DNA of 64,000 nt from assembly GCA_017938435.1 (NCBI GenBank), contig JAGBBO010000037.1:1-64000 (forward strand). Reading direction: 5' to 3'. Below are positions 18,245-41,038 of the stretch, piece by piece. The DNA comes from Alphaproteobacteria bacterium. Its GTDB lineage: Bacteria > Pseudomonadota > Alphaproteobacteria > Rs-D84 > CACZYB01. The translations under genes were made by a program, and so were the position numbers. Each line of letters opens with the position of its first letter. The stretch's first letter is position 1. The notes under the pieces are model-generated. The model saw only the letters and a list, made by a program, of their open reading frames with translations. It searched no databases and was not told the origin of the DNA.

Positions 18245-18332
18245 TGGCGGAAAGAGGGGGATTCGAACCCTCGATACCTTGCGGTATGCACGCTTTCCAA
18301 GCGTGTGCAATCGACCACTCTGCCATCTTTCC
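18245..18332 (-). tRNA. tRNA-Ser (anticodon GGA)
   Basis: An 88-nt minus-strand cloverleaf with acceptor GGAAAGA/TCTTTCC, a long variable arm, T-loop TTCGAAT and encoded CCA. Anticodon loop TTGGAAA gives GGA, reading UCC/UCU. Unlike the other four tRNAs of the window it has no copied 3' end downstream. Confidence 0.95.
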
Positions 18333-18380: not shown

Positions 18381-18403
18381 AAAAAAGGGAGCCGAAACTC
18401 CCA
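18381..18403 (-). terminator. Terminator of the large cysteine/serine-rich gene
   Basis: GGGAG (18387-18391) pairs with CTCCC (18398-18402) and on the minus strand is followed by T6. It lies 20 bp past the stop codon at 18422. Confidence 0.8.
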
Positions 18404-18421
18404 TTTTACGATTAAATAATT

Positions 18422-20581
18422 TTATTTATTTTGCATTTCCTGGAACATCTGTAATGCCTTAACAAGAGAAGGTTCTTCATTTATACTATCAAGCATTTTT
18501 GTACATTCTACTTTCTTTGCATCACAATCTTCTTCCTTACATGTTCCACCTCCAATAAGATATTGATCCCCTCCAACACAACGGTATTGATAAATACCAT
18601 CAGAAATATTTTTCTTTGCAAATGTCGCTTTTTTAACAGGATCACCCCATGCTATACTTTCAAATGGTCCAGAAACTTCTTCCCAGAAAAGATCTTCAAA
18701 AATTTTATTCATCCCCTCTTCCGAAATTTTCCATTGTTTAAATAATTCAGGATCTCTAGTAGAAAACCTCTTATAACTATCTACATTATACCTATGACTT
18801 TGAAGCCAATTAGACCAATAATTCTTTGTAACACTATCACAATTATTTAAAGTTGCAGTATAGGCAGCACCATCCAAATCAAGTTTTATAAAATTACAAG
18901 TTTTAGATGAATTGTATTGACGCGATGGAATTATACATGGTAAAGAATCACATCTCCAAGAAAAATTATCACCAAATACAAATTTACCAATCTTTCCTCT
19001 AAGATAACCAGATACACGAACACTAACTGACACATCGTTTTCACGACACACCAAATAATTAAAAAGTGAACTTTTATCAGAATTAGAACAATCATATGAA
19101 CGAGAACTGGAATATCCTTCTCCATTAAGTGCAAGATTAACAAAATCACTGGTTAATACAGTCACTGGACTACAATAGCTTGCCCCTCTAAATGTGTTAG
19201 AAAAAGATAAACCAAAATTACTATTCCCAAAATTATTACTATTCACAAAATCACATTTTTTACACTCTGTTGCACCAGACTGATCATTATATGTTCCAGC
19301 AGGACATTTTACACAAGCTTTTGCACCATCCTTTGAATAAGTACCTGCAAAACAAGTTAAACAACTCTTTGTTATTTCATCATAATATGATCCAGCCTTA
19401 CAAGAACTAGACGCATCTACTTTTTTCTTCTCTTCTTCTTCAGCTTTTTTCTTCTCAGCAGCAATCCTCTCTTCTTCAGCTTTCTTCTTCTCAGCCGCAA
19501 CCCTCTCTTCCTCAGCTTTCTTCTCAGCCGCAGCCTTCTCTTCCTCAGCTTTCTTCTTCTCAGCAGCAGCCTTCTCTTCTTCGGCTTTCTTCTTTTCAGC
19601 AGCAGCCCTCTCTTCTTCGGCTTTCTTTAATGATTCTTCATCATTAACAGGTTCAGAAACAGCCTCTTCCACTACAGAAGTTACAGCATTCACCTTACAA
19701 TCATTTATACTCATAGCTCCAACCGAAGATTCTGTTCCATCCGGACATTTCTCACATTTAGCAATATAATTATCACCTATAGATACAGCATAAAAATTAG
19801 CCTTACACTGTGCAACATAAGCACTATCAAAACCCCAGTCATATGCCTCTTCATCTGTTGCCTTTCTTGCATTTGCATTTGCAGGAAGGGAACATTCACT
19901 ATCTGTATTAGGGTTAATATATTTACTTTTTCTCCTTTCCATTGGAACACCAATAGGACAAATATCATAATTAGAAACACAAACCGAAGATTTCAAAATA
20001 TAACCATCATTACATTCAAAATAAACAGCCTCATTTTCATCTTCAATCCATGCAAGTTTCCTAAGCCCAGATTCTTCAGTCCACAATTCTTCATACGCAT
20101 TTTCTGGTGCATCACATTTTTTTGTCTTCGCAGAATAATAAACTCCATCTACTGCACGTAAAACTACACCAACTTTACAAAAATTCTTTTTTACTTCTTC
20201 AACAGGAGTTTCCTCAACAACAGAAGTTTCCTCAACCTCCGTTTTCAAAGATTTTGATGTTATTGTTTTTTTAGAAGCACTTGCCCTTTTTGATGATTTT
20301 GATGAATTCGCAGCTGCACGCTTACTTGATTTTGTAGAAGAAACCCCTGATTTTGAACTTGCCGAACGCAAACCCTTCTTACTCGATGATGCCGACTTTT
20401 TTGAACTTGCCGAACGCAAACCTTTCTTTGAACTTGCTGAACGCAAACCTTTCTTTGAAGAAGTTTTAGCCTTCGAAGAACCAGACGACTTAGATGAAGC
20501 CCTCTTCGACGACCTTGCACTCTTCGTTTTTGCTACAGTAATATCTGACATAAAAATAAATAGAACAATTATATAGAACAA
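18422..20581 (-). CDS. Large Ser/Lys- and Cys-rich surface-type protein, body frame (719 codons, start out of frame)
   Basis: The body has a Ser/Lys/Arg/Ala-rich region (about residues 17-110) with repeats of the 'KKGLRSASS' type. A cysteine module follows (~130-290), then a charged tract of about five AEEEKAAAEKKK-like units (~305-395), GCC2/GCC3-like repeats 'CKAGSYYDEITKSCLTC' and 'CPAGTYNDQSGATECKKC', and a ~220-residue globular end with cysteine pairs. A secreted, envelope-attached protein is likely. In this copy the frame begins at 20581 without a ribosome site, whereas the well-placed start at 20660 is in another frame because of a 13-bp duplication (20560-20585). Deleting one repeat copy joins MVRQNE... 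to this body with a normal signal peptide ending near 'SDITVAK'. Function unknown; phase variation is my inference. Confidence 0.75.
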   Translation of the reverse strand: MFYIIVLFIFMSDITVAKTKSARSSKRASSKSSGSSKAKTSSKKGLRSASSKKGLRSASSKKSASSSKKGLRSASSKSGVSSTKSSKRAAANSSKSSKRASASKKTITSKSLKTEVEETSVVEETPVEEVKKNFCKVGVVLRAVDGVYYSAKTKKCDAPENAYEELWTEESGLRKLAWIEDENEAVYFECNDGYILKSSVCVSNYDICPIGVPMERRKSKYINPNTDSECSLPANANARKATDEEAYDWGFDSAYVAQCKANFYAVSIGDNYIAKCEKCPDGTESSVGAMSINDCKVNAVTSVVEEAVSEPVNDEESLKKAEEERAAAEKKKAEEEKAAAEKKKAEEEKAAAEKKAEEERVAAEKKKAEEERIAAEKKKAEEEEKKKVDASSSCKAGSYYDEITKSCLTCFAGTYSKDGAKACVKCPAGTYNDQSGATECKKCDFVNSNNFGNSNFGLSFSNTFRGASYCSPVTVLTSDFVNLALNGEGYSSSRSYDCSNSDKSSLFNYLVCRENDVSVSVRVSGYLRGKIGKFVFGDNFSWRCDSLPCIIPSRQYNSSKTCNFIKLDLDGAAYTATLNNCDSVTKNYWSNWLQSHRYNVDSYKRFSTRDPELFKQWKISEEGMNKIFEDLFWEEVSGPFESIAWGDPVKKATFAKKNISDGIYQYRCVGGDQYLIGGGTCKEEDCDAKKVECTKMLDSINEEPSLVKALQMFQEMQNK
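19430..19625 (-). repeat. Tandem 33-36-bp repeats coding AEEEKAAAEKKK-like units
   Basis: About five consecutive imperfect units inside the large surface-protein gene. One unit is 11 instead of 12 residues. Such in-frame repeats are prone to copy-number change without frameshift. Confidence 0.8.
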
Positions 20582-20660
20582 TTATAAAAAGAAAAATACT
20601 AAATCTTCTTAGTATTTTAAGGGGGTTAACTCTCCCAACACATTCGTTTTGTCTAACCAT
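20490..20660 (-). CDS. Out-of-frame 5' end of the surface-protein gene (56 codons)
   Basis: ATG 20660 has GGAGAG 6 nt upstream, the best initiation signal of this locus. The peptide 'MVRQNECVGRVNPLKILRRF' followed by 'SIFLFIIVL' is a typical long signal-peptide n- and h-region. After the first 13-bp repeat copy the frame leaves the coding register and stops at 20490. With one repeat unit fewer, reading continues '..IIVLFIFMSDITVAKTKS' into the 719-codon body. It is therefore most likely the true gene start, shifted OFF in this sequence, rather than a separate small protein. Confidence 0.7.
   Translation of the reverse strand: MVRQNECVGRVNPLKILRRFSIFLFIIVLYNCSIYFYVRYYCSKNEECKVVEEGFI
20560..20585. 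repeat. 13-bp tandem duplication in a signal-peptide region
   Basis: Two perfect adjacent copies of ATAGAACAATTAT (20560-20572 and 20573-20585). Thirteen is not a multiple of three, so copy number decides whether the start at 20660 is in frame with the downstream body. Confidence 0.95.
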
Positions 20661-20743
20661 AACAAACTCTCCATGTTTATATATACACAATATATCAAAA
20701 TTATATCATATTAAATAAAAAAATGCAATATTTTAATATAAAT

Positions 20744-20977
20744 TTAACTTTTCTTTTTGAATGGATTTGTTGGATGTAAAAACCATCCAATAACAGACAT
20801 ACATTTTTCAACACAGAAAAATACTAACCACATTAAGATAAGTAAAACCGGAACTGATGTATGAATTCTATACCCAAGCCAAAAAATATCCACTGTTCCG
20901 TAATTATTGGAAATCCAAACACCAATCACAGAAAACAAAAGAAATATAAAAAAATATTTGAATGCAGTCTTTAACAT
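20744..20977 (-). CDS. HemY N-terminal membrane anchor only (truncated HemY-like protein)
   Basis: This 77-residue protein matches the two-helix N-terminus of alphaproteobacterial HemY: 'FKYFFIFLLFSVIGVWISNN', then 'VDIFWLGYRIHTSVPVLLILM', in which 'WLGYRIxTSVxVLL' is the family hallmark. Full HemY proteins have a TPR domain of ~300 further residues; here the gene ends 'HPTNPFKKKS' with no TPR and no open continuation, only ~50 bp of spacer before the next gene. It follows the Mic60-like gene by 8 bp, the order known for alphaproteobacteria (mic60-hemY). It may be a reduced, still expressed protein, since frame and codon use are normal. Confidence 0.75.
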   Translation of the reverse strand: MLKTAFKYFFIFLLFSVIGVWISNNYGTVDIFWLGYRIHTSVPVLLILMWLVFFCVEKCMSVIGWFLHPTNPFKKKS

Positions 20978-40602: not shown

Positions 40603-40714
40603 ATTAAAACCTCTTAAATTTATAAAATAATTTTATTTATAAACATAAATTTTGTAAAGAAAAATATAAAATATTATGTAATATTACTTACAAAATTCTT
40701 TCTAAATATCAGTA

Positions 40715-40963
40715 AAAATTCGAAGTGGCTGAGGTATGGTTGGATTTGACACCGAACCCAGCTGTTCTTGATTTCGAGCGTTGTTAGCGAGAAATTCTAG
40801 AATTGCTCGTTCGTTGCCGAAGCCTGTAGCAGTAAAAACTTGAAGTGGCTGGGGTGGCTGGATTTGACACCGAACCCAGCTATTCTTGATTTCGAGCGTT
40901 GTTAGTGAGAAATCCTAGAATTGCTCGTTCGTTGCCGAAGCCTGTAGCAGTAAAAATTCGAAG
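40715..40963 (-). repeat. tRNA-Gln(UUG)-associated tandem repeats (two units)
   Basis: Units 40726-40845 (120 bp) and 40846-40963 (118 bp) each begin, in plus orientation, with a copy of the tRNA-Gln 3' end; the outer copy is mutated (TGGCTGAGGTATGGTTGG). The core between is almost the same as at the tRNA-Gln(CUG) locus, but the 20-nt flank next to CCA differs and is specific to this locus. The core holds the palindrome AATTCTAGAATT (40793-40804) and the shared motif (40775-40791 and 40893-40909). Confidence 0.88.
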
Positions 40964-41038
40964 TGGCTGGGGTGGCTGGATTCGAACCAACGAATGGCGG
41001 AACCAAAATCCGCTGCCTTACCACTTGGCGACACCCCA
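40964..41038 (-). tRNA. tRNA-Gln (anticodon UUG)
   Basis: A 75-nt minus-strand cloverleaf with acceptor TGGGGTG/CACCCCA, anticodon loop TTTTGGT giving UUG, T-loop TTCGAAT and encoded CCA. Confidence 0.95.

Follow-up and report, generated by a model that had tools for sequence, protein, structure and literature searches.

A gene for a predicted secreted or surface protein, whose reading frame is broken inside the signal peptide, was found on the minus strand of the window (the whole stretch of DNA that was analysed, 64,000 bp). We consider it quite probable that this gene is species-specific and is present as an OFF allele that arose through a recent 13-bp duplication, that it originates from a family of genes with poly-G tracts, and that the allele is reversible in principle.

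The start codon ATG (20658–20660, minus strand) was read from the sequence, and a Shine-Dalgarno GGAG is located ahead of it at positions 20672–20669 of the same strand. The body of the gene is an intact frame of 719 codons (18422–20581, minus strand), unbroken from a TTG at 20581, and directly past it lies an intrinsic terminator (18387–18402, minus strand). The unit ATAATTGTTCTAT occurs twice, with one base more, within the signal peptide's hydrophobic core (20560–20586, minus strand), which corresponds to codons 26–34 of the ORF begun by ATG 20660 and shifts the frame by +1. Analysis of the window using TRF gave a period of 13, 2.1 copies and a 100% match for this tandem. In the present two-copy allele, ATG 20660 is out of frame with the body, and its frame is closed by a stop after 56 codons (20490–20660, minus strand). 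This short frame covers the charged leader and the beginning of the hydrophobic core, the body frame opens inside the core, and both meet at the tandem. When only one copy was read, 741 codons were open from 20660 (MVRQNECVGRVNPLKILRRFSIFLFIIVLFIFMSDITVA-KTKS...), and the signal peptide had a net charge of +4 ahead of a strong, normal hydrophobic core. The tandem is the only disruption of the gene. These results bear out the original prediction in that two perfect copies lie in the signal-peptide region, that the start at 20660 has a good ribosome site and is out of frame with the body, and that removal of one copy yields a continuous protein with a normal signal peptide. Its span of 20560–20660 took in the start codon together with the repeat and needs only this small correction.

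No other perfect tandem with a period of at least 13 is present in the 64-kb window. Under a first-order Markov model 0.025 such tandems are expected per 64 kb, and one of 40 simulated windows contained one; the tandem is above this chance level, yet it has just two units. As in contingency loci, the repeat is located in the 5′ coding part and a change of one unit alters the frame. The microhomology flanking the unit is at most 1 bp, and this, together with the presence of only two copies, means that the unit is no obvious hot spot.

The 5′ end of the gene was compared with that of a paralog from its own genome, C42 (C42:41,200). The 5′ end of the paralog is ATGATTAGACAAAATAGACGAAT-G8-TAAATCCC, and after G8 it continues as TAAATCCCTTGTAAA; at G8 its start and its 432-codon body fall into different frames. 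The window leader ATGGTTAGACAAAACGAATGTGTTGGGAGAGTTAACCCCCTTAAAA is collinear with the C42 leader, including an eroded poly-G leader motif GTTGGGAGAGTTAACCCCCTTAAA (20616–20639, minus strand) that is collinear with ATGGGGGGGGTAAATCCCTTGTAAA of C42 and in which the G tract has been reduced to GGGAGAG. Ranked by similarity of the 5′ 66 nt to the C42 leader, ATG 20660 was first among the 2296 ATGs of the window, with a z of 4.6 relative to ORF starts. Without anchoring, over 225 bp, the score of the real pair was reached by 10 of 500 shuffles; judged from these alignments, anchoring on the start codon is needed to make the homology clear. The one-copy signal peptide of the window gene and that of C42 were aligned without gaps. 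The two genes also have a common promoter layout, namely a promoter-like TTGCAT-17-TATAAT with TGn before the −10 element (20700–20728, minus strand; read from the sequence and the C42 alignment) and its counterpart TTGCAT-17-TAATAT in C42. The comparison supports the assumption that ATG 20660 is the start of the family, and with its frame broken the present allele appears to be OFF or a fresh mutation, as had been proposed. Of the poly-G leader layout (SD-ATG, 5–14 codons, G8–10, TAAA and a signal peptide), the window gene lacks the G tract, which is eroded; the signal peptide followed by a K/R/S linker and a conserved body is present.

The body consists of a K/R/S-rich linker, a KAEEE coiled region, a Cys-rich motif and a C-terminal domain without an assigned family. 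A match to Ephrin_rec_like (GCC2/GCC3-type, PF07699) was found at residues ~387–444 with an E-value of 6.5e-12 and a score of 45.5 bits, against a curated Pfam cut-off of 23.1. The Cys-rich motif is thus shared, above this cut-off, with GCC2/GCC3 secreted proteins; unlike that motif, the N-terminal linker, the coiled region and the C-terminal 260 residues did not yield any family assignment. Structure prediction gave a poor model of the C-terminal 276 residues (mean pLDDT 40.8). Designed PPR repeats from the PDB were considered for the last 38 residues, where the targets consist of repetitive helices and not one individual stretch passes, and TolA was considered for the KAEEE coiled region, to which its matches are confined and where they stay below the cut-off; both candidates were rejected. 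The body matches paralogs in its own genome and in congeners with E-values down to 4.5e-45. Relatives with an E-value of 1e-20 or better were present in the own genome and in four of the five congeners, weaker matches of the Cys-rich motif were found elsewhere in the order, and no relatives of the protein were found in plasmids or viral contigs. The gene is taken to encode a cysteine-rich protein that is secreted or located at the surface.

The gene lies between a small LapA-like membrane protein gene upstream (20744–20977, minus strand; named by general resemblance, with no family match above the cut-off) and a tRNA-Ser (GGA) gene downstream (18245–18332, minus strand). The two upstream genes, a 348-codon ORF and the LapA-like gene, are kept in all five congeners. 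Next after them, G004, G001, G003 and G005 have the tRNA-Ser(GGA) gene or sequence from its immediate vicinity, and G002 has other genes. A surface-protein gene after the LapA-like gene was found in none of the five, which indicates that the window gene is an insertion or duplication specific to the species or its near relatives.

The genomes of the genus were also screened for poly-G tracts. There were 45 tracts of at least eight G in G003 and 28 in G005, next to three in the own genome and one, one and two in the other three congeners. Two screens (29 + 1) revealed 30 genes with a Shine-Dalgarno site and ATG, 5–14 codons and then G8–10, including C42 of the own genome, and in most cases the proteins behind this start are secreted or membrane-bound. 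The start was out of frame in 25 of the 30 and in frame in five, where single ON/OFF calls are uncertain because the lengths of G tracts in draft assemblies may err by one base. Among the 24 out-of-frame genes of the 29-gene screen, 18 need one base fewer and six need one more. The distribution over these 29 genes (18 with one G too many, six with one too few, five in frame) is skewed relative to the equal thirds that free slippage would give. Related OFF/OFF pairs (e.g. L147/L164, L158/L165, L131/L189 and L156/L188) had dN/dS values of 0.23–0.58; the silent bodies in the sister species thus appear to remain under constraint, which would be expected of genes that are ON for some of the time. 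Taken together, 5′ frame switching through poly-G tracts is evidently in use in this genus.

Behind the poly-G leader, 17 groups of bodies can be told apart, and no similarity was detected from one group to another. Ahead of these unrelated groups, a conserved leader DNA was observed, consisting of the start codon, a short peptide, G8–10 and TAAA..TGTAAAWTCAA..GTTATA (loci L036, L131, L137, L144, L147, L149, L163, L164, L174 and L181–L191). In its sequence, this leader looks like a portable switch cassette. At least six intergenic copies of the leader (L133, L134, L135, L168, L172 and L198) have no long reading frame behind them. Viral contigs contained no copy of the motif, and apart from the two sister species none turned up in the order's genomes (190 searched, 2 mismatches). 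A separate dispersed repeat was observed in the two sister species, in which poly-G is located in the loops of 10–12 bp palindromes, e.g. GTCCATCCCCCTA-G9-TAAGGGGGATGGAC (L121, L126, L129, L130, L139, L146, L157, L173 and L199). At L143, L151, L178 and L180, a conserved ATTGATTTTACA in the upstream region is followed by a poly-G tract close to promoter-like sequence, which suggests phase variation of the promoter type at these four loci.

The most probable history of the window gene is as follows. In the family from which it derives, a start codon and a short leader are followed by a poly-G tract before the signal peptide, as the sequences of paralogs and sister species show, and slippage of this tract would set the frame. 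In the window copy, the G tract was eroded by substitutions that left a readable leader frame, provided that the leader homology holds. A 13-bp segment of the signal-peptide core was duplicated in tandem, putting the ribosome into a frame that ends after 56 codons, so that no exported protein would be expected from ATG 20660. Because the two copies have not diverged and the 719-codon body carries no interruption, the duplication is probably recent. Should slipped-strand mispairing remove one copy, the frame would be restored, which makes the allele reversible in principle. A second allele was sought in the genome and viral contig sets (genome_contigs and viral_contigs), from which records of the own or very near genomes may be left out, and no relative was found; we therefore infer that a one-copy allele exists or existed.

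Two known systems were compared with this history. In the pneumococcal genes cap3A, cap8E (wchA) and tts, short tandem duplications that arise spontaneously are reported to cause phase variation (Waite et al. 2001, 2003; cited in PMC4022640 and PMC4243769). As in cap3A, a perfect tandem duplication within an ORF breaks the frame and could be undone if one copy were lost precisely. However, reversion is reported there, whereas the window gene is known from a single allele; in addition, those are capsule genes, and here the duplication lies in the signal peptide of a secreted-protein gene. The pneumococcal duplications are the nearest precedent for the 13-bp event. For the genus context, the nearest precedent is the poly-G contingency loci, or phasomes, of Campylobacter, Helicobacter and Neisseria (PMC6321876, PMC2823697, PMC3786947). 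Like these, the members from the sister species and C42 carry G8–10 after the start codon, and tract length sets the frame. The differences are that no G tract is left in the window gene and that in the sister species a single leader motif fronts many unrelated secreted proteins.

Two other explanations share the anatomy described above; the disagreement is over whether the break functions as a switch. According to the first, the gene is an early pseudogene, fixed after the loss of poly-G, which then acquired a chance 13-bp duplication and is practically irreversible; we give this a little less than an even chance. The state of the other own paralogs points in this direction. The C29 copy (L192, C29:44130) shares the leader, in which the G tract is broken and codon 4 is a TAA; in C16 (L212, C16:91360) the signal peptide and the body are in different frames across a shortened K/R/S linker, and only C37 is intact. 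The lesions in these two of the five own paralogs do not look reversible by slippage, and the own genome has few G tracts compared with its sisters, which makes decay a close rival; the species-specific position of the gene is also consistent with it. However, the bodies in the own paralog family are still open (719, 432, 333 and 597 codons), and a pure G8 tract persists in C42, which speaks against decay.

According to the second, poly-G has been replaced by the 13-bp repeat, which would now work as a contingency switch, with slippage between one and two copies keeping both ON and OFF cells. The 5′ coding position, a unit length that is not a multiple of 3, the intact body and a genus with 5′ frame switching on the same protein class are in line with this, as is the reported switching of pneumococcal capsule genes by spontaneous short tandem duplications (Waite 2001, 2003; cited in PMC4022640 and PMC4243769). 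Against it are the mere two copies and the fact that no comparable repeat was found in other genes of the window or in the examined paralogs, and we consider it rather doubtful. The original prediction of a phase-variable surface protein thus holds in part. Phase variation by repeats in 5′ coding regions is evidently widespread in the sister species; the 13-bp repeat as the switch could not be upheld as stated, because the family repeat at that place is poly-G, which is lost in the window gene, and because there are two copies with almost no microhomology at their ends and two other own paralogs with irreversible-looking lesions. The 13-bp repeat is at most a candidate for a switch maintained by selection. 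A broader version, in which the window gene is a member of the poly-G switch-leader family whose G tract was swapped for the 13-bp duplication as a slower ON/OFF switch, in a lineage that uses one portable leader (promoter, start codon, poly-G and conserved tail) before many unrelated secreted proteins, is likewise improbable as a whole.

Synthesis of the body in the two-copy state is very unlikely. It could begin at TTG 20581 or at ATG 20551, the earliest in-frame ATG of the body, both of which are in the body frame, or depend on frameshifting or transcript slippage on the T5 runs ahead of the repeat. However, neither codon has a Shine-Dalgarno site, both T runs are just 5 long, and the homologous start is ATG 20660; moreover, a protein begun at either codon would have no charged n-region and a shortened core, and thus no proper signal peptide. 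An assembly or sequencing error at the tandem is scarcely credible even for a draft genome of 55 contigs that is probably a metagenome assembly, as the contig is 75 kb long, the 27-bp feature fits in any read, and short-read assemblers seldom invent perfect 13-bp duplications.

A frame break in a single gene would be ordinary, and it is the setting of the genus that adds weight. New here are the homology of the start and leader with the out-of-frame G8 paralog C42 of the own genome and the poly-G setting of the genus. The genus is uncultured, with genomes of about 1 Mb; dozens of poly-G tracts are present in two of its species, where the frame of secreted proteins, which are mostly OFF in the assembly, is evidently set by tract length. 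Genome sizes over the order were 0.5–1.1 Mb and in this appear to resemble the order Rs-D84 (Enterousia and relatives; PMC12306168). No paper on phase variation in this bacterial group was found in the library searched. If confirmed by reads, this would open surface switching to testing in a lineage for which gene lists are otherwise the only source on host-associated life.

Two longer tandem arrays were also observed in the window, one of 171 bp × 2.2 at 610–982 and one of 118 bp × 2.3 at 40710–40982. They run into tRNA-Ser and tRNA-Gln genes, repeating parts of their 3′ ends, and are possibly tRNA-linked integration scars.
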